62,172 bases of DNA, taken from the NCBI GenBank assembly GCA_009917695.1, contig JAACJG010000007.1:165750-227921 (forward strand), written 5' to 3'. The position numbers were made by a program, and so were the translations under genes. Shown here in pieces: positions 18,996 through 59,034 of the stretch (within the stretch, counting starts at the first letter, position 1; each line of letters starts with the position of its first letter). The notes beneath the pieces were generated by a model that was not told where the DNA came from, did no database searches, and was given only the letters and a program-made list of their open reading frames with translations. Source of the DNA: Candidatus Rifleibacterium amylolyticum. GTDB taxonomy: Bacteria; Muiribacteriota; Ozemobacteria; Ozemobacterales; Ozemobacteraceae.

Positions 18996-19256
18996 TCAGG
19001 CTGCCTTTGCTTTCAGTTGTGTAACCAGATTTGTTTTCAGTCTGGAGATGATTTTTCTGACTTTTCCGGTTCTGCTGGCAGATTTTGTTAAGGCAAAGTC
19101 AAGTTCTCTGGTTGTTTCGCCAATAAGCTTTGCTTCGACAACAGTGGCTGTTTCCAGGGATTTGCCAAGCCGATCGAGAAAGTCGGCAAAAGTAAGCTTG
19201 TCTTTTTCAAACTGTGAAAGAGATTCCCAGAGCAGTTCAATGTGATCCATTTTCAT
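18996..19256 (-). CDS. Small helical protein of unknown function
   Basis: 86 residues from the ATG at 19256 (GAGAGGATT upstream); the frame stays open further but without a ribosome site. Predicted mostly alpha-helical and charged, Lys/Leu-rich, without cysteine or membrane segment. It begins 35 bp after the stop of the receiver-domain gene and is probably cotranscribed, so it may be its partner. I do not recognise the family. The second receiver copy at 53714 has no such neighbour. Confidence 0.5.
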   Translation of the reverse strand: MKMDHIELLWESLSQFEKDKLTFADFLDRLGKSLETATVVEAKLIGETTRELDFALTKSASRTGKVRKIISRLKTNLVTQLKAKAA

Positions 19257-19290: not shown

Positions 19291-19683
19291 TCAGATGACA
19301 GTTCGATTAACCATTGGTCTGACGGCATTTACATAAAGGCTGATTCTGTTTACCAGTGCCTGAATGGGTATTGGTCGATGCAACGACCTGATAGTTGCGA
19401 CATACGGTTCCGGGGGGTCCTCTTGGTCACGAGAAGTAACAGAAAGAACGGGTATCATGCTGGTTGACGGAACCTTTTGCAAAGTTGCAAAATCTGCGCT
19501 TTCCTGCCGACCGGCCAGGCCAGACGCCAGAAGTATTAGGCCGGGATGTTGGCTGATGGCCATTTCCACACCCTGCCGGCAACTCCTGGCTTCGATGACC
19601 TCGAGGCCTGTAATGGCCAGTAAATCTCGAATGAACTTTCTGTTAAACACATTGTCATCAACCAGCAATATTTTTCTACCCAT
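19291..19683 (-). CDS. Receiver-like domain protein lacking the phospho-acceptor Asp (copy 1)
   Basis: 130 residues, a single CheY-like domain. KILLVDDN keeps the acidic pair, but the site that should read LILLD is LILLASGL, with Ala53 in place of the Asp. The Lys of the last strand is replaced by Arg in LHRPIP. It should therefore not be phosphorylated normally and may be a structural or ligand-binding pseudo-receiver. A close paralogue lies at 53714-54106 with the same substitution and a related leader. Start has AAGGGAA. Confidence 0.8.
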   Translation of the reverse strand: MGRKILLVDDNVFNRKFIRDLLAITGLEVIEARSCRQGVEMAISQHPGLILLASGLAGRQESADFATLQKVPSTSMIPVLSVTSRDQEDPPEPYVATIRSLHRPIPIQALVNRISLYVNAVRPMVNRTVI

Positions 19684-19925
19684 GATTCTTCCCTTACATC
19701 TCGAAAAGATTTGAAGACAGAAAAGGTCTTACAGAGCAGGACAAACAGCCAGACCTCGCTGAAAGAATCAGCCGGGCGCAGCTGTTTTATTGTTCAATTG
19801 GGGGACTCTGAAGATATGTTTGCCTGTAAGGCAGTATATAACAGAGAATTTAACTGAAAAGTCTCTCAATGTCGTGATTATTTGGTATTGATATATTTAT
19901 AGCAGATAGTAGTCATTAAACGCAA
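19684..19925 (-). promoter_or_regulatory. Promoter and conserved ~205-nt leader of pseudo-receiver copy 1
   Basis: On the minus strand TTGCGT (19925-19920), 18 bp, TATAAA (19901-19896), then a leader to 19684. It shares long blocks with 54107-54396: the promoter region, TCACGACATTGAGAG, CAGTTAAATT.TCTG, a small TGCCT...AGGCA hairpin, CCAATTGAACAA, and the CTTTTCGAGATGTAAGGGAA ribosome-site region. The conservation is stronger than expected for an untranslated spacer, so a regulatory RNA is possible. Confidence 0.55.
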
Positions 19926-20219
19926 TGGCAGTACCGTTTTGCATTGGATGATGGAATAACAGGTTATGAATATTTCAAGATTGCTTATCTGAGGCAAAAA
20001 AATTTTTGGCAGTTCGGAGAGAAAGTCGAGCAGATAAGATGGCAGATTTGGTCTGTGGCTTTTCGCTGTTTGTCGATCGGCGAGCAGCCTTTTACGTTGA
20101 ACTTCTTTTTCGACTGCTTGCCAAACAGTGCTCAGTCCTAACAACGCCGGAATCATGAGCCAAAACTTTCTGCACAGGCATTTGGTTATGCCAATCTGCG
20201 CAGGATAGAACAACTCGGC

Positions 20220-20292
20220 CGAACCAGGCAGTTTTGACGCAAAGCCATAGCTTTCTACAATAAGCTTCGCCTGGGGGATATGTAGCGAAAGA
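20220..20292 (+). repeat. Structured intergenic repeat, copy 2 (upstream of DUF5320 gene)
   Basis: Matches 2019-2092. Outer stem CCAGGC/GCCTGG and inner hairpin AAAGC-CATA-GCTTT. It is followed near 20310 by TTCTTACGGCTTCAGCC, which also occurs in the MITE-like repeat at 1065. A second hairpin precedes it at 20169-20202 (CTGCACAGGCAT ... ATGCCAATCTGCGCAG). The 19926-20413 interval contains no convincing gene. Confidence 0.55.
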
Positions 20293-20413
20293 TGGCAAGC
20301 CATCCGCAGTTCTTACGGCTTCAGCCAGATGAAGCATAAAATTGATGCTTGCCGCAGAAGCGGTGTTATTTTATAATACAAGTATTGCGAATAGGTAATC
20401 TCAGGAGAGCATT

Positions 20414-26259: not shown

Positions 26260-29163
26260 ATGTTGAAAGTGCTTCTCAGGAATCAAAAGGGCCAGCAGCT
26301 CAAAATTCTGAATCTGCTGCTTGGTTTTATATGCTTTTTTGTCCTGCCAGGTCTCATCATTTTTCGTGGAATTGATGGGATTATCGATATTGAGGCATCT
26401 GCAAGAAAGCAGCAGGCGGAACAAAAAAAGCAGGAATTGCTCGATCAACTCGAATTCTTTTCTGAAAATGACAGATTCGCACACTTCATTCTTCGTTCTC
26501 TTTGCTCTGAACTCGACAATGCCACCGATCCTCAAAACAAGCTCAAATCTGAAATTCGCAAACTTAAAAACAGCTTTCCCGGGGCTTTTACCTTCATAGT
26601 TGCCGACAAAGCCGGCAATCTACTGCCGACAATCTCTGACGAAACAAGCTATTCATATATGTATCGCCAGGCGATCGAGCTGCTTTCCAACGTCAGTGAC
26701 GCTTTCAAGCGCAATAAAGAATATGCGGCGATACCAGACTTCTCAACCCGTTTCAACAGGCTCAAACCGCTTCTCGGAGATCTTATCAAGCCAGACCATT
26801 TGACCATGCCATTGCACAAAAACAGATATGGACGATCGCTTCTGGCTTCTGGCAACAAGAACCGGTTTCATCTTTGGCATGGTCACGGCGGCAACCTGAA
26901 ACTGCTGGTCTATATAAGCCGTGATTTCATCAGAGGCGACACAGGTCTGCGCTGGATAACCAGCAGGCTTAACCGTAGCAATTCTGAAACTATCGCCGGC
27001 TTTTCCAGTTATCCTCCTGACCAGAACAGCTTCATACCTGTGCTGGCAAAAGAACTTGCAGCAAAAGTCACCATGGCCCTGGCCAGTCATGAAGAAATGA
27101 ACATTGCTCCTGAAGAATCCGACAATGCCTGGCAAGCGATTTCGTGTCGTTTCTTAAACCAGTATTGGCGTGGATTCGCTCTGTTCCGACACAATACGCA
27201 GACCGACCCGGCAGTTATCAAAGCGGCATTTACCGCTACTGTCGTCAAATACCTTTTTGTTTTGTGCTTTGTGCTTTTTGTCTACCAGCTTAAGCACCCT
27301 TTTTCAATGACAGTAAAGCTCAAAATATCGGCGTTCTTCGCATTTGCAGTCATTCTTCCCATTCTGGTCATTTTTACCCAGACCATGGAATACGTTCGTC
27401 AGACCGAGACAGAAATGATGAACGATCTTAAAAATGAAGCCTGTCATGCAATCGAAAAGCTTGATGGTAATTATGAATGGTTTCTCAAAAAGCGCGCAAA
27501 CGCTTTAACCAGCTATCTTATCGCCAATATTGAGCATCACCCGGAAACACTTCAACAAAAAGAGTCGTTGCGAAGATTTTTCGATAATCTCATACCTGTC
27601 GCGAACCCTGGCGAAGTGATGATTACAGACAAACACGGCACAGATTACCTGCTGGGAATTTCCAGAAGAATTACCCGTGACAGAGCACCAATGTGTTCAG
27701 CGGCCAGCAATGCCCTCAAAACCCTGATTTCAGGATATATCGCAGACAAAGGCCCCACGACCAGCATTTTCGACATGCTGTTTTACACCGGAATTTACGA
27801 ACATCAGAATGACATCTCCTATTTCGGTATCGGCGACTTCGAAATGGGCAACTATTACCGACTTTTGCAGCCAAAGGGGAAGTGCAGAGACGCTATGCTG
27901 CTGTCAGTCGTTTCCTGGCGCCTGCATGAATTGCAGCGCGATCATATAGAAAATTACTGCCTGCATGATTTGGCAGAAAACGGCGACCTGCAGATAGCCG
28001 CCTATTGTAGAACTGGAGAAGATCTTTTCCTGGCACCGAATACCAGCCAGCCGCGTTTAATAAACCTTCTGAAAATGTCGGTTAACCGTAAGATAACTCA
28101 AGTAGATCGGCTTAGTCTCAATGGAAAAGAACACATTGCTGTAGCAATGCCCGGAAGACAGCTGAACCGCATGATACTGGCGGCCTTTCTACCCTTGGAG
28201 AAGGTAAAAAAACAGCGAGAAATTATCATCAACCGGGCCAAGGCTCTGGTATTGTCTCTATGCCTGCTTGCCATGGCAACGCTTTACCTTCTCAGAAAAT
28301 GGCTGTTCAGACCGTTACACGAGCTCAAAACCGGGATCGATGCTATCGCGAAAAGAGATTTTCACAAGCGCCTTGAAATTGTCTGCCACAATGAATTTGG
28401 CGAACTCATGACAGCTTTCAATCATTCACTCGAAACTCTTCAGGAACTCGAAGTAGCTAGAATAGTCCAGGAAAGCCTGCTCCCCGAAAACGCCCTTACC
28501 AGCAATCGCTGCCAGATCGTTGCAAAAACCAGAATTATGACAAATCTCGGCGGCGATTATTACGACATGATTCCTCTCGGCAGCAGCAAAGTTCTGCTGT
28601 TCATTGGAGATGCAACCGGGCATGGGATTCCGGCTGCCTTGAGTATGGCCATGGCCAAGTCGATTTTGATTCATGAAAACCATCTTGGCCTGACTGCCGA
28701 GAAACTCATGCAGCAGGTAAATCAGGTTTTTGGAAACCTCCGCCGGCATGGCAGCAAAGATTACATGACTGCACTCTGCATAGAGCTTGATAGCACAAGC
28801 GGTAGCGGTCGTGCCATAAATGCCGGGCATTGCTATCCGATTATCTTCAGGCAAAATACTGGCGAAACCAGAATTCTTTCAGAGATAAATGCTTTGCCAC
28901 CCGGATTCGACGCAAAAATTCACTATCAGGCGTCGGAATTTATGTTGCAACCAGGCGACAGGCTGTTTCTGTTTACCGATGGATTTGTCGAGTGTCAGGA
29001 CAAAAGCGGCCAACAGATCGGCTTTGACGGCCTTGCAAAAATAATCTCAGCGACAGCCGGACAGACCTCAGATAGCCATATTGCCAACATTTTCCAGAGA
29101 CTTGAAAGTCTGTCAGCACAACTTCAGGATGACTGCACCATGATTGTGTTGAGTTTTCAATGA
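26260..29163 (+). CDS. Membrane sensor with HAMP and SpoIIE-type (PP2C) phosphatase, first of tandem pair
   Basis: 967 residues. N-terminal membrane helix (about 18-38) and extracytoplasmic segment, a central pair of helices (about 325-375) flanking a second sensing region, a last helix (about 665-685), HAMP, then the phosphatase. The PP2C metal ligands are complete: GGDYYD near 764, GDATGHG, TDGFVE and DDCTMIV. Such enzymes dephosphorylate STAS anti-anti-sigma factors. The double sensor region before one phosphatase is unusual. It overlaps the next gene by ATGA. Confidence 0.85.
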   Translation: MLKVLLRNQKGQQLKILNLLLGFICFFVLPGLIIFRGIDGIIDIEASARKQQAEQKKQELLDQLEFFSENDRFAHFILRSLCSELDNATDPQNKLKSEIRKLKNSFPGAFTFIVADKAGNLLPTISDETSYSYMYRQAIELLSNVSDAFKRNKEYAAIPDFSTRFNRLKPLLGDLIKPDHLTMPLHKNRYGRSLLASGNKNRFHLWHGHGGNLKLLVYISRDFIRGDTGLRWITSRLNRSNSETIAGFSSYPPDQNSFIPVLAKELAAKVTMALASHEEMNIAPEESDNAWQAISCRFLNQYWRGFALFRHNTQTDPAVIKAAFTATVVKYLFVLCFVLFVYQLKHPFSMTVKLKISAFFAFAVILPILVIFTQTMEYVRQTETEMMNDLKNEACHAIEKLDGNYEWFLKKRANALTSYLIANIEHHPETLQQKESLRRFFDNLIPVANPGEVMITDKHGTDYLLGISRRITRDRAPMCSAASNALKTLISGYIADKGPTTSIFDMLFYTGIYEHQNDISYFGIGDFEMGNYYRLLQPKGKCRDAMLLSVVSWRLHELQRDHIENYCLHDLAENGDLQIAAYCRTGEDLFLAPNTSQPRLINLLKMSVNRKITQVDRLSLNGKEHIAVAMPGRQLNRMILAAFLPLEKVKKQREIIINRAKALVLSLCLLAMATLYLLRKWLFRPLHELKTGIDAIAKRDFHKRLEIVCHNEFGELMTAFNHSLETLQELEVARIVQESLLPENALTSNRCQIVAKTRIMTNLGGDYYDMIPLGSSKVLLFIGDATGHGIPAALSMAMAKSILIHENHLGLTAEKLMQQVNQVFGNLRRHGSKDYMTALCIELDSTSGSGRAINAGHCYPIIFRQNTGETRILSEINALPPGFDAKIHYQASEFMLQPGDRLFLFTDGFVECQDKSGQQIGFDGLAKIISATAGQTSDSHIANIFQRLESLSAQLQDDCTMIVLSFQ

Positions 29164-32009
29164 AACAGAAAAGCATTTTTGTACAGTTTTATCTTATACT
29201 GACGCTTCTTTTGATTCCTGCAGCAGGGATCAACGAAGGCTTGAAGTACTTTGCCGAAAATCGCAAAAAAATAGAAATCAGCAGTGCAGCTCGAGAACTG
29301 ACCGGAATCAGAAACGATCTTCAGCTGCACGCCGACCAGCAGAAGTTCTGGGTCAACCAGCTGAAGACCTGGTTCTCCGAGGCTGAATCACCTCTGCAAT
29401 TCGCAGACCGACTGAAGGAATTTCTCAGCCGTTATCAGTCAGAAGTAGTATTTGCCGTATACGACAAGCATTCTCGACTGGTCAGCGATAATTTTATCCT
29501 AGACCCGGCAGAACGCACAAAATGGGATGAAGCTGGCATATCGCTGCAGACTGCCATGACAACTGCTGTTTCGCCAAAATACTATGAAGCTGTCGATAGA
29601 TTACGACCTGTCATGGGGCGCAATCTCTTCGTTCCAACCACAGATAACCCAGAATTTAATTCCTGTAACATTCTTTATCAAAACGATTTTGAGAAAGACC
29701 TCTATCGCTGCTGGCTGGCGAAAAACAGCCTGCTGATGGCTGTAGTGAGAATTTCCACAAAGGAACTACAAAAGAAGACCGGTCTGAAAGCCTTTATAAG
29801 CACACTCGATCCTGAAAAAACGCAATTTGAAAGCTTTTCTGAAAGCGAACAGGACTTCGACCGGCACTCTGCAACGTCACGTATTGCTTATCAAAAACTG
29901 TTGCAACAGCCGGCGCATGAATTCATCGAATATGAAAACAAACTCTTCAGTAGAGCGCAAACTGGTATAAACTCATGGGTTCTCATCACTTACCAACTTT
30001 CAGACAAACAGATGCGCCCGGGTAGAATTGTCGTCGCTGGGCTGCTGCTGCTGATCTTTTTCATATTATTTTTGCAGCGAAACGGCTGGTTTCCGGCCAG
30101 AATAGAAAATCTGCCTTTACTCGTGCAGACAGGAATACTGATGGCTGTCGCGGCGGGTATTCCCCTCACCATTCTTGGCTCGGTTGCCATAAACTATTTT
30201 GCCAACAAGAAAACGGCTCTGATTCGCGAAGTAAATCAGCAGATGGCGCAGTTTGCACTGAATATCGACCGCAACCTCGAGCTCGAACACTCCAGATATG
30301 CCAGAATGATGCGCCAGAGCATGCACAGAGTCCCCGATATGCTGAGCGACAAGACTTCCAGTAATGACATTCGGCTGCTTTTCAGAGAACGGCTTGATAA
30401 AGCCTATTCCAGCATGCTCATCCTTGCGGGCAGGGTGCTCAGAGATTCAAGCGAAGCAAAGGCTGAATACAGCCTGATAACACACGATATGCATCCTAGC
30501 GACAAAGATATTATCAGTCATCTCGGCAAACGTCATCTTGCCACACTCAATTCGACAGCGCATGAAGACATTCCGCCCGAAATCGCCTATTTACTCGAAA
30601 CCGTGTTTCAAAAACCTTTTGAACAAATTGTACACGACCTCTTATCAGAGGAAGGAAAACTGGTAAATGCCGGCTGGGGCAGTCGTAAATTGACTCTGTT
30701 CGTTGAGTCCTTCCAACTGCTGACCAGCGCATATTTCGACCATTTTCTGTTCATGTCGATACATTCTGATCTGCTTCAGGAAAGCTACATTGCCAGGCAT
30801 CTGCATGGCGCAATCAGAAACCCATGGGGCTTTATTTTTTATGTGGCGTATGGACAGACACTGCTGAACGAACAAAAACCTCTGGAACAATACCCTGATG
30901 TTAACCGGCTTTTCACAAAAACCGCCGACTTTCCTTTACCAGAACCTGAAATCGTCGAATTCAACAACAGCAGCCATCTGTTTGTCGGTCTGAAGGGAAG
31001 CACCACCAACAGTATCAGATTCTGTGTCCTTTATCCGGTCGAACGTATCGATGCCAAGATAAGCGGTGAGGCTAAGGAGCTTATATACCCAACGGTTCTG
31101 GGCATATCGCTGGTGTTTTTTATGATAGTCATTCTGCATCTCAATCTTCTGATGCCGGTTAAGCGTTTACACCAGGCCGCTCGCGCTCTGGAAAATCGCG
31201 ATTCAACCTTCCGCCTGCCGGACAGTGAAGGTGATGAATTCTCAGAAATGGCAAAGATTTTCAATAACAGTATCGGGGAGTTTGACGAGCTTAAAATCGC
31301 CAGTATCGTTCAAGCCAGGCTTCTGCCAAACCAGCCCTTCAATGTTGAAGGTTTCAGCATATTCGGGAAAAGTCTGCCAATGATCGAGCTTGGCGGCGAT
31401 TATTTCGACTATTTTCCGATTGATGAAATGAACTTCGCGCTTCTACTGGGCGACGTGGCCGGGCATGGGGTTGGTGCCTCGCTGATCATGGCGATGGCGA
31501 AAGCTGGAGTGATCTGTAGCAACGACATTGCCAGAGATCCGGCCTCAGTGCTTGGACGCCTGCATCAAATCGTCTTTTCGATCAAAAACCGGGTTCAACG
31601 CAAGGTCATGACTTTTCAATATCTTCTGGTAAACAAAATAGATCGCAGCCTCGTCTACAGTAATGCCGGTGGCTGCTCTCCTGCCCTGATCGACCCGACC
31701 ACAAAAACCGTCAACGAAATTAAGCATGCCGGTGCGGTTCTTGGTGGCTTCAAAAAGAGCGTTTACAGCAATCTCAACCTGACAATCAACCCGGGCCAGG
31801 CCATAATTTTATATACGGATGGCATGGTTGAATCCCGCAATGAAATCGGCACAGAGCTTGGTTATCAGGGACTGTTCGATCTGTTTCTCGCCTGTTACGA
31901 CAAAAATGCGACCATTTATTACCACAACGTTATGACAAGTTACCAGAAGTGGCTTGGGCAAGCCGTTGCCGGCGACGACGTAACCCTCATCGTCATGGTG
32001 TGTACATAA
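29160..32009 (+). CDS. Membrane sensor with HAMP and SpoIIE-type (PP2C) phosphatase, second of tandem pair
   Basis: 949 residues with the same layout as its neighbour: N-terminal helix, helices near 290-345, last helix near 645-665, HAMP (LMPVKRLHQAARAL), phosphatase with GGDYFD near 745, GDVAGHG, TDGMVES and DDVTLIV. Sensor parts are strongly diverged while the catalytic half is conserved, as expected after an old tandem duplication with new input specificity. No kinase or STAS gene is adjacent; the STAS gene at 1252 is a remote candidate target. Confidence 0.85.
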   Translation: MKQKSIFVQFYLILTLLLIPAAGINEGLKYFAENRKKIEISSAARELTGIRNDLQLHADQQKFWVNQLKTWFSEAESPLQFADRLKEFLSRYQSEVVFAVYDKHSRLVSDNFILDPAERTKWDEAGISLQTAMTTAVSPKYYEAVDRLRPVMGRNLFVPTTDNPEFNSCNILYQNDFEKDLYRCWLAKNSLLMAVVRISTKELQKKTGLKAFISTLDPEKTQFESFSESEQDFDRHSATSRIAYQKLLQQPAHEFIEYENKLFSRAQTGINSWVLITYQLSDKQMRPGRIVVAGLLLLIFFILFLQRNGWFPARIENLPLLVQTGILMAVAAGIPLTILGSVAINYFANKKTALIREVNQQMAQFALNIDRNLELEHSRYARMMRQSMHRVPDMLSDKTSSNDIRLLFRERLDKAYSSMLILAGRVLRDSSEAKAEYSLITHDMHPSDKDIISHLGKRHLATLNSTAHEDIPPEIAYLLETVFQKPFEQIVHDLLSEEGKLVNAGWGSRKLTLFVESFQLLTSAYFDHFLFMSIHSDLLQESYIARHLHGAIRNPWGFIFYVAYGQTLLNEQKPLEQYPDVNRLFTKTADFPLPEPEIVEFNNSSHLFVGLKGSTTNSIRFCVLYPVERIDAKISGEAKELIYPTVLGISLVFFMIVILHLNLLMPVKRLHQAARALENRDSTFRLPDSEGDEFSEMAKIFNNSIGEFDELKIASIVQARLLPNQPFNVEGFSIFGKSLPMIELGGDYFDYFPIDEMNFALLLGDVAGHGVGASLIMAMAKAGVICSNDIARDPASVLGRLHQIVFSIKNRVQRKVMTFQYLLVNKIDRSLVYSNAGGCSPALIDPTTKTVNEIKHAGAVLGGFKKSVYSNLNLTINPGQAIILYTDGMVESRNEIGTELGYQGLFDLFLACYDKNATIYYHNVMTSYQKWLGQAVAGDDVTLIVMVCT

Positions 32010-53636: not shown

Positions 53637-53671
53637 AGAAAGAAAAAGTGGCTTCGATAGCCGAAGCCACT
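53637..53671 (-). terminator. Terminator of pseudo-receiver copy 2
   Basis: AGTGGCTTC and GAAGCCACT form an exact 9-bp stem; reading on the minus strand TTTTTCTTTC follows. It lies 43 bp past the receiver gene. Confidence 0.75.
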
Positions 53672-53713: not shown

Positions 53714-54106
53714 TCAGATCATAGTTCTGTTAATCATAGATCGGGCGGCATTTACATAGGGCCTGATCTTTTCAACGAGGGCTTTGATCGGAACCGGTTG
53801 CTTATGCAGTCTGGCTGTTGTCGCGTAAGACCATGAGAGGTCTTCCTCGTCCTGCGAGGTAACCGAAAGAACTGGAATTTTACTGGTTGACGGAAATTTT
53901 TGCAGATCTGCAAAAGCCTTGCTGGCATCCGAACATAACATGCCTGCTGCCAGAAGTATCAGACCAGGATGATGACTGATTGCCATTTCCACGCCATGTT
54001 GGCAATTCCTGGCTTCGATGACTTCGAGGCCGGTTATTGCCAGCAAGTCACGAATGTATTTCCGATTAAACAAATTGTCATCAACCAGCAAAATTTTTCT
54101 ACTCAT
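53714..54106 (-). CDS. Receiver-like domain protein lacking the phospho-acceptor Asp (copy 2)
   Basis: 130 residues, about two thirds identical to the protein at 19291. KILLVDDN is kept, but the phosphorylation site is LILLAAGM with Ala53. The late Lys is present (LHKQPVP). The same Asp-to-Ala change in two separate copies indicates that loss of phosphorylation is a selected family trait, not a decay. Single-gene unit with its own leader and terminator. Confidence 0.8.
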   Translation of the reverse strand: MSRKILLVDDNLFNRKYIRDLLAITGLEVIEARNCQHGVEMAISHHPGLILLAAGMLCSDASKAFADLQKFPSTSKIPVLSVTSQDEEDLSWSYATTARLHKQPVPIKALVEKIRPYVNAARSMINRTMI

Positions 54107-54396
54107 AATTCTTTCCCTTACATCTCGAAAAGATTAGAAGACAGAATGCGCACAAGCATGGCAGATGAGCTTAAATGGCCCTCAGAACTGGCCAGAGAAA
54201 GTCAAAAGATATGCTGTGAGCCTATCCGCGCTGAATTATCAAGCAGGACATGGCTGTTTGGTTGTTCAATTGGTGGATTCTGAAAACATGCCTGTCTGAG
54301 AGGCAATATCTATCAGAAAATTTAACTGGTGGAACTCTCAATGTCGTGAATATTTCTTATAGATATAGTTATAGCAAACTATGTTCTTAAATGCAA
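54107..54396 (-). promoter_or_regulatory. Promoter and conserved ~255-nt leader of pseudo-receiver copy 2
   Basis: Minus strand: TTGCAT (54396-54391), 17 bp, TATAAC (54373-54368); RNA would start near 54361. Shared blocks with 19684-19925 include the promoter, TCACGACATTGAGAG, CAGTTAAATTTTCTG, TGCCT...AGGCA with a longer loop, and CCAATTGAACAA. A middle segment of about 100 nt is copy-specific. Confidence 0.55.
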
Positions 54397-54525
54397 TATC
54401 AGAGCTGTTTCGCACCAGAATGGTACAACGGTAGCGGGCGATCTCTCAAAATTGCTTTTCTGCGGCAAAAAATAATTTGAAATCCAGCAAAGAAGCAATC
54501 AGAGAGTTGTCGCCCTGCGAATCGT

Positions 54526-56970: not shown

Positions 56971-58833
56971 TTAAAACAGAGCTTCGAGAGCCAGGGTCAG
57001 GCGCCGGCCGGGCCTGGTATAGCCAACTACGCGTTGTTGTGAGGCATCAGTCAGATTCAGCAATCCGGCTTCGAACGAGCACTCTTTGAAGTTATGCCGC
57101 AAAAACAGCGAAATATCATGACTGGCGGGCGCACTGCGCGTGTTTTCGGCGTTCTCCCAGACTGAACCCCACCACTGACCGCGGCAGGTCCAGGTAGTCG
57201 GTCCGATTTTGCGCTCGACAACAGCGGTTGCCTGCCGGGCCGCGATTCCCGGAATCTGGGTTCTGGTGTTTTCTAATCTGGCGCGATCGAGCAGCATAAA
57301 ATCGGCAGCTATACTGAAACCGGCTAATTTAAGCTCTGACAACGAAATCTGATGCGAAGTGATTCTGGCCCGCTCGAGATTCGCAGCTTTGATTCCCCAG
57401 GTATAGGCCGGGTCAGTCGTCGCTGTCGTTCCGATCAGGTTTGAAACGTAGTATTGCGTTGCGCTCACCTCAAGACGCCCGAACCGGCCAGCACCGCCGG
57501 CAACCGACAGGGCTGCCGAAGACGAGAACTCGGGCCCAAGCTCGGGGTCGCCATAAGCGGGGTAAAAGCGTTCGTTCAGAGCCGGCATTCTAAATGATTT
57601 GCCCCAGGCCGCACCGACGTCAAACACACCAACCTTGTGCTGCAGAGCGATATTGCCGGTTTCTACAGCGCTTTGATCCTGTGGTTTGTCGTTGCGAAAA
57701 ACGGCATTCAGTATAGTAGCAGCGCCGATTTTACTTTCGCAGGCAAGCAGACCGGCAGCATCGGTCTCGCGCACCGAGAACAGACCAGCGTTTTCGGCTC
57801 TGACCTCGCTACGTGAAACCTCAAACATCCAGTTCTGCCGGTTGCGCACCAGACTGCGACTGACGGCCTGGCGCTGCCGACTGGTTTCGAGGCCATATTC
57901 ATTGAAGGGATTGTCTTCGTCGATCCCGGTAAAGGAAGTATGGCCAAAGGCATGCGTCAGTCGCATTTCTCCATCGGCAAAGGTTTTTATCAGACCGGTA
58001 TTGAACTGGCTGCCAATCTTTTTCTGTCTGAATGTCAGACTGTCAACCGGCAAGCCACTCACAAAATCGAAACCGTCGAGGTCGGTTCGGCTGCGGTTGA
58101 ACTCTGAACTCATCTGAAGCTGCCAGTCTCGCCTCATCGGTGCTTCCATCGCCAGATACGCGTTATCGAGAGCAAAAGCATCGCGCTCAGTGTTGCCGTT
58201 TTCCTCGGCAGCAGCAGATATGCCCGGCGTAGCGAAACGACTGAGGCGAACGCCAACTTTGGCAGATCCTGGATTTATACTTGCTTCAACGGCATGGCCG
58301 TGACCGCCATGTCCATCGGTCCAGACGCGAACGCGGCCGGAATCAGGAAACCGGCTGGTCAGGCGCAGTGTGCCGCCGATACTGCTGCTTCCCCACAGGG
58401 TTGCCCGGTTGCCCTGCCAGAACTCGGCAGTCTCGAACTGCAGCGTCGAAAAATCGCCGATATCAGGGGTTCCGGTAAAGGGGTCGTTGACTGGCAGACC
58501 GTCTTTCACGACGAGCACTTTATTACCAGAAAGCCCGCCCGAGCTCATTCCGGCCACAGCGCCAGGCCCACCGCTGCTGCGCAGGTGCAGTCCCAGCTGG
58601 CCATCGAGAGCTTCAGACAGAGTAGTTTTGCCGGTCGCCGGCAATACCTCGAAAAACAGATCATCTGTTGGCTTGCCGGTAATGGCGTCGGGGTGGTTCC
58701 AGGCCGGGGCTGCGACTTCGATGGTGCCGAGGTCGTATTGCACCTGGTCGGCCGGCCGAGCGGTCTGCGCAATTGCAGAATGCCACGGAAAAAGAGAAAC
58801 AAAAATTGGAACAAGAAAGAGTTTTTTGAGCAT
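56971..58833 (-). CDS. TonB-dependent outer-membrane receptor, probably cobalamin (BtuB-like)
   Basis: 620 residues, signal peptide (1-22). Plug domain about 50-170 with LVVKDGLPVNDPFTG and GNRATLWGSSSIGGTLRL; 22-strand barrel after that, ending LTLALEALF. A cobalamin riboswitch directly upstream makes a corrinoid the likely cargo. The length fits BtuB. An ATG at 58840 in another frame has a better-placed GAGG, but the 58833 start gives the signal peptide, so that one is chosen. The TonB motor is at 4.2-6.1 kb. Confidence 0.87.
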   Translation of the reverse strand: MLKKLFLVPIFVSLFPWHSAIAQTARPADQVQYDLGTIEVAAPAWNHPDAITGKPTDDLFFEVLPATGKTTLSEALDGQLGLHLRSSGGPGAVAGMSSGGLSGNKVLVVKDGLPVNDPFTGTPDIGDFSTLQFETAEFWQGNRATLWGSSSIGGTLRLTSRFPDSGRVRVWTDGHGGHGHAVEASINPGSAKVGVRLSRFATPGISAAAEENGNTERDAFALDNAYLAMEAPMRRDWQLQMSSEFNRSRTDLDGFDFVSGLPVDSLTFRQKKIGSQFNTGLIKTFADGEMRLTHAFGHTSFTGIDEDNPFNEYGLETSRQRQAVSRSLVRNRQNWMFEVSRSEVRAENAGLFSVRETDAAGLLACESKIGAATILNAVFRNDKPQDQSAVETGNIALQHKVGVFDVGAAWGKSFRMPALNERFYPAYGDPELGPEFSSSAALSVAGGAGRFGRLEVSATQYYVSNLIGTTATTDPAYTWGIKAANLERARITSHQISLSELKLAGFSIAADFMLLDRARLENTRTQIPGIAARQATAVVERKIGPTTWTCRGQWWGSVWENAENTRSAPASHDISLFLRHNFKECSFEAGLLNLTDASQQRVVGYTRPGRRLTLALEALF

Positions 58834-58860: not shown

Positions 58861-59034
58861 GTCAGAACCAGGTTCTGACAGGACTTTGAGGTATTCCGGC
58901 TTCCGGATCATTCGCATGCCCGGTCTTCCCATCTCTTCGACAGTGACCACGGCTGGGCATTTGTCCCCGGTTACGGCGACGGACTCGCGCGAGACTCGCA
59001 CTCGCTTCCCTCATCGGCCAGTGGCGATATTATA
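58861..59034 (-). promoter_or_regulatory. Cobalamin riboswitch with its promoter
   Basis: Minus strand: TATAAT at 59034-59029, then from 59020 to 58883 GAGGGAAGCGAGTGCGAGTC, GTGGTCACTGTCGAAG and the B12 box GAAGCCGGAATACCTC, in the order of the cobalamin riboswitch. A GTCAGAAC-CTG-GTTCTGAC hairpin (58879-58861) follows just before the ribosome site and may be the expression platform, acting on translation rather than termination because no T run follows. Confidence 0.87.

Follow-up and report, generated by a model that had tools for sequence, protein, structure and literature searches.

Aspartate-less pseudo-receivers of Candidatus Riflebacteria share a conserved untranslated leader, a candidate cis-regulatory RNA

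Two genes in a 62,172-nucleotide stretch of the Candidatus Rifleibacterium amylolyticum genome (contig JAACJG010000007.1; the whole stretch is called the window below) code for stand-alone receiver domains that have lost the aspartate of the phosphorylation site, and both are preceded by the same long untranslated leader. We lean towards the interpretation that they belong to a genus-specific type of pseudo-receiver that acts by protein binding and whose amount is partly set by the leader. Such a protein would act without phosphorylation, through binding of a partner that could be a four-helix protein encoded behind it, a kinase or another receiver. If it acts in this way, regulation would be effective through the quantity of protein produced.

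The first gene (c1; 19291..19683, minus strand) and the second (c2; 53714..54106, minus strand) each encode 130 amino acids with Ala53 at the phosphorylation site, as a first-pass annotation of this DNA had read them. Their assignment rests on translation, Pfam searches and alignment with orthologues, in the case of c1 also on dN/dS. Response_reg is the sole Pfam family matched by the two proteins; against PF00072 c1 scores 29.0 bits (E 1.3e-6), slightly under the curated cut-off of 30.2, c2 reaches 33.5 bits (E 5.1e-8) and the most distant member of the family, that of genome G005, has an E value of 1.4e-10. The c1 and c2 proteins are 68% identical (dN 0.22, dS 1.28). Their own genome contains no third copy, and a search for further copies of leader plus gene, suggested in the first-pass annotation, returned none. 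Both are four residues longer (RTVI in c1, RTMI in c2) than the members of genomes G001 and G002, whose 126-codon frames close with a TGA stop that reads CGA in c1 and AGA in c2 (window positions 19291-19305 and 53714-53728).

Relatives of the genes and of the leader were sought in 40 genomes of the phylum. Of the five other genomes that represent the genus, three (G001, G002 and G005) have a single orthologue each and two (G003 and G004) have none; the remaining 34 genomes gave scores no higher than those of ordinary receivers. The orthologue of G001 has 62% identity and Ala53, that of G002 59% identity and Gly53, and that of G005 about 40-41% identity and Gly53. The reading of the first-pass annotation depended on copies without the aspartate, and Asp53 indeed occurs in none of the five members. 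Its wording, the same Asp-to-Ala change, is correct for c1 and c2 and too narrow for the family: with three alanines and two glycines at position 53, it is the loss of the aspartate that is family-wide and not the alanine. As far as can be read from the alignment, the second residue of the acidic pair is also lost in G001 and G002 (DD to DN), and the conserved lysine of the beta5 loop is replaced by arginine or glutamine before a proline in all five members (Arg in c1, Gln in c2). In a phylogeny the five members lie on one side of a branch with a support of 86/49, found in 90% of the bootstrap trees; two outgroup rows of this tree (L019 and L021) had been translated from the wrong strand and are to be disregarded. 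Judged by sequence, the family is a single, genus-specific clade of stand-alone pseudo-receivers of Candidatus Riflebacteria. The dN/dS ratio of ~0.2, at a dS of about 1.0-1.3 between the main lineages, indicates that the receiver genes are kept functional despite the missing phosphorylation site.

Pseudo-receivers amount to ~4-13% of receivers, depending on count and definition, and are thought to work via protein interaction or control of their amount, two indirect routes among others; a 2025 review calls the way in which these bacterial domains are turned on and off a mystery (PMC12632262). The present family resembles them in that its members are receivers by profile (PF00072) in which the aspartate is lost and other active-site residues drift (DD to DN, Lys to Arg or Gln). 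It differs from the usual case in the replacement, which is alanine or glycine whereas glutamate is the commonest one in aspartate-less receivers, and in that its members stand alone without an output domain, are restricted to one genus and are followed by a four-helix protein.

DivK-like single-domain regulators, which likewise consist of one receiver domain of ~120-130 amino acids, are the closest by sequence and rank among the best fold matches, but they keep Asp, Thr and Lys, of which the present family lacks Asp and Lys. A decoy in phosphosignalling is conceivable on this ground: the pseudo-receiver would bind to, and compete with, a histidine kinase of the same cell or one of its DivK-like receivers, and the leader would set the dose only. 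In agreement with such a function, the relative that ranks behind c2 within the own genome is a DivK-like receiver whose aspartate is intact (32% identity), the top NCBIfam model for c2 is DVU0259_DivK, and DivK is among the closest PDB matches of the AlphaFold2 (AF2) receiver model. That model is weak, however (the element order is receiver-like, but the mean pLDDT is 55, and receivers were matched by Foldseek with E values of 0.006 and worse), and no kinase gene was identified adjoining c1 or c2. We regard the decoy as possible though somewhat unlikely; as it is a narrower version of the protein-binding step favoured above, the two estimates overlap. The earlier statement that the family is not controlled by a kinase is reasonable for phosphotransfer to position 53 of this domain, and does not extend beyond that.

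A candidate for the partner that the favoured model calls for is encoded next to the receiver. In four of the five loci (c1, G001, G002 and G005) the receiver gene is followed within ~100 nt by a gene that codes, behind c1 (18996..19256, minus strand), for an 86-amino-acid protein predicted by AF2 as four helices with a pLDDT of 83. The two genes would be cotranscribed. The partner protein has no match in Pfam or NCBIfam, and its fold none in the PDB at E <= 0.001; with neither a family nor a structural match, its identification as a known four-helix family or as Hpt was rejected. Each of the six genus genomes, and G019 as well, has a paralogue with 33-46% identity that adjoins truA and a gene for a ribosomal protein (gene names as read from the translations), and together the partner and its paralogues are a small protein family without annotation. 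In each of the six genus genomes the paralogue is placed between an aminotransferase-like gene and truA (e.g. G000:C11:100346-100573, L053). Behind c2 neither a partner gene nor a remnant of one was detected by tblastn, and a strong intrinsic terminator with an 11-bp stem and a T-tract follows at a distance of 42 nt (53647..53671, minus strand). c2 has lost its partner and is closed by this terminator of its own; most likely it is an older duplicate (dS ~1.3). That c2 persists without the four-helix protein speaks against the favoured model.

The gene neighbourhoods of the loci are not syntenic, which indicates that promoter, leader and gene stay joined as one unit. Purifying selection maintains the receiver along with its promoter and leader and, at four loci out of five, also with the four-helix partner. 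Carriage by viruses or phages was considered as well and rejected, as relatives were not found in viral contigs or phage records.

The unit begins with a putative promoter of the sigma70 type, which would start an mRNA with a leader of 200-300 nt. Its layout is the same in all five loci, TTGC(A/G)... and TGnTA(T/G)AA separated by 17-18 nt; the individual forms are TTGCGT-18-TATAAA for c1 (19896..19925, minus strand) and TTGCAT-17-TATAAC for c2 (54368..54396, minus strand), both with TGC before the second hexamer, so that the promoter plan ascribed to both genes in the first-pass annotation is confirmed. The c1 promoter scored under the threshold of a generic consensus scan. An inverted repeat (TTGC...GCAA) lies ~55 nt upstream of the -35 element of c1 (19981..19997) and likewise upstream of the c2 promoter (54452..54468); by alignment it is conserved in four loci, with paired changes of the TGCC/GGCA type in G001 and G002, and it may serve as a site for a regulator or, read on the opposite strand, be a stem resembling a terminator. 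The DNA just upstream of c1 (window positions 20010-20330) is part of a dispersed intergenic repeat, pieces of which occur with 72-91% identity at ~35 places in the own genome, at 16 in G002 and at one in G005; it may be a REP- or MITE-like element.

Counted from the base taken as transcription start, the leaders of c1 and c2 are 207 and 256 nt long. This bears out the earlier description of leaders of 200-255 nt with common blocks, whose similarity is above chance: with the c1 promoter-leader DNA as query, the only further match in the own genome is the c2 leader (E 1.8e-28; 73% identity over 220 nt), with the start-codon block at E 3.2e-9 and all others at E >= 0.25. The order of elements is common to the five loci and comprises AAATAnTCACGACA, TTGAGAG, AGTTAAATT, a hairpin H2, AACAAC..ACAGC, a second hairpin H3 and the ribosome-site block; in the G005 leader several blocks are blurred and H3 is not recognisable. 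The conserved 5' block with the invariant TTGAGAG extends over 19854..19890 in c1 and 54326..54362 in c2 (both minus strand). The block around ribosome site and start codon, TTCTGTCTTCAAATCTTTTCGAGATGTAAGGGAAGAATC in c1 (19684..19722, minus strand; in c2 54107..54146, minus strand), is 85-95% identical among c1, c2, G001 and G002. The similarity is thus kept in three other genomes, down to a protein of ~41% identity, where its loss in orthologues would have spoken against the first-pass annotation.

Paralogues such as c1 and c2 initially have their upstream DNA in common, and the likeness of the leaders could in principle be a mere residue of duplication or common descent, with the leader itself lacking a function. 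The degree of conservation makes this very improbable. Between c1 and c2 the 5' part of the leader is 75% and the start-codon block 88% identical, compared with 51% at the fourfold-degenerate sites of the genes; among all pairs of c1, c2, G001 and G002 except the closer pair G001-G002, the 5' block shows 70-77%, the ribosome-site block 85-90% and the fourfold-degenerate sites 51-55% identity, at a dS of about 1.0-1.3. The similarity also breaks off shortly behind the gene and, on the other side, upstream of the promoter region; the spacer between the leader blocks has only 52% identity between c1 and c2, with large indels. Since the blocks are more conserved than the fourfold-degenerate sites, the leader is under selection and not merely inherited.

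The association of leader and gene is exclusive. A covariance model of the leader (R1), whose matches begin at the 5' block, found one element per pseudo-receiver gene (five of five, E 2e-18 to 1e-10) and, at E <= 0.1, none before any other gene across the 40 genomes of the phylum. A wider RNA family was considered and dropped: weak R1 matches in G003, in G004 and at a second place of G001 adjoin unrelated genes. An Rfam search of the five leaders at E <= 1 gave no relevant match, and the idea of a known riboswitch was discarded for this reason. A scan of the leaders revealed no convincing intrinsic terminator on the sense strand, on which ground attenuation by such a terminator was rejected; by eye, a hairpin followed by T8 is seen in G002 only. 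In our view the leader is a candidate cis-regulatory RNA, specific to the genus and absent from Rfam.

As an RNA, the leader can fold into one or two hairpins, with moderate and not decisive support. Hairpin H2 of c1 (19806..19846, minus strand) consists of an outer stem CTCTG/CAGAG, a middle stem ATAT/ATAT and an inner stem TGCCT/AGGCA; that of c2 (54278..54318, minus strand) has TTCTG/CAGAA and GCCT/AGGC as outer and inner stems. The small hairpin with a varied loop of the first-pass annotation was found again as the inner stem, GCCT-loop-AGGC, of this longer one. When each leader is folded alone, H2 appears at the same place, with z-scores of -3.0 to -3.8 in four leaders and -1.5 in G005. 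If these independent folds are aligned by the 5' arm, two-sided changes are seen at positions 4 (C-G/U-A), 11, 12, 15 and 19 (C-G/A-U). H3, present in c1, c2, G001 and G002, is formed by CAGC...GCTGA/TCAGC... in c1 (19749..19784, minus strand) and occupies 54221..54256 (minus strand) in c2; it was obtained as RNAalifold pairs with a column-shuffle z of -3.0. The boundaries of the hairpins were picked after inspection. As windows within the coding part of the gene attain z -4.0, the z-scores of the leader, that of H3 included, prove nothing by themselves. With five sequences formal covariation is weak: in their automatic alignment the counts of covarying pairs were no better than those of shuffles, and the alignment fold including G005 has z -1.65 (p 0.08).

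These only moderate fold statistics are in line with a different explanation, according to which selection acts on the leader blocks as DNA, namely as initial transcribed region and as operator sites for a transcription factor, which would bind the inverted repeat and TTGAGAG. The conserved 5' block begins within ~20 nt of the -10 box, and the inverted repeat precedes the promoter in four loci. The conservation, however, spans ~130 nt and sets in again at the ribosome site, and the asymmetric internal loops and loop-length changes of H2 fit an RNA better than a protein-binding palindrome. Moreover, the leader of G005 is recovered (21.4 bits, E 0.014) by a structure model built without it, but not, at E <= 1, by a model of the same rows that uses sequence only. 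We consider conservation as DNA in place of RNA unlikely, although part of the conservation may be at the DNA level, and assume that the leader probably forms an RNA fold.

Translation within the leader is another option. An open frame that starts at the TTG of TTGAGAG (LRDFSVKFSV...NNKTAAPG) is kept in c1, c2, G001 and G002, where two indels of G002 restore it, and could encode a leader peptide through whose translation the gene would be controlled. Against it, the c1-c2 substitutions are spread evenly over the codon positions (9, 9 and 10), the score of the frame falls short of significance (p 0.09), the TTG is preceded by no apparent ribosome site, and in G005 the frame diverges and ends early. 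A leader peptide is therefore highly unlikely. A minimal ATG-TAA reading frame before the ribosome site was also set aside, being found in c1 and c2 only and absent from G001 and G002.

Returning to the leader as an RNA, its 5' block, the three-tiered H2, H3 in four of five loci and the ribosome-site block would tune the expression of this gene only. The first-pass annotation had proposed a family controlled at the RNA level; the family and its conserved untranslated leader are real, but control by RNA does not follow from the loss of the aspartate. Control acting on the RNA is plausible, and it is the leader data that make it a sensible hypothesis; for a regulatory role of the leader at the RNA level we see an even chance. 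A precedent is provided by cmrRST of Clostridioides difficile, an operon that includes the pseudo-receiver regulator CmrT and lies behind a c-di-GMP riboswitch (PMC12548384), so that a structured leader RNA partly sets the expression of a pseudo-receiver. In contrast to the present family, cmrRST also has a normal kinase and receiver and an invertible switch, and the leader described here matches neither a c-di-GMP riboswitch nor any other Rfam family. ANTAR two-component antiterminators are similar in that a receiver-related family is tied to hairpins of leader RNAs. The ANTAR output domain is absent here, as Response_reg was the only domain found and the protein ends at residue 130. Leaders recognised by ANTAR proteins contain two hairpins with a pair of hexaloops, which the loops seen here do not appear to resemble. 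A more far-reaching model, in which the leader is a new class that occurs only before aspartate-less receivers, senses a ligand or a protein (possibly the pseudo-receiver or its partner) and replaces phosphorylation as the switch, appears quite doubtful to us. Every known member of the family lacks the aspartate and has the same untranslated leader over a near-saturated synonymous divergence, which makes it a clean and testable case for control by amount in place of phosphorylation. It also contributes an RNA candidate that Rfam lacks and a four-helix protein without annotation.

The sole Rfam match of the window is a cobalamin riboswitch of 65 bits at 58889-59025 (minus strand), which precedes a gene for 620 amino acids (56971-58833). 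Window positions 26260-32009 hold two adjacent large genes for 967 and 949 amino acids, the first with HAMP and SpoIIE phosphatase domains, and two large genes homologous to this pair are located near the receiver cassette of G005.
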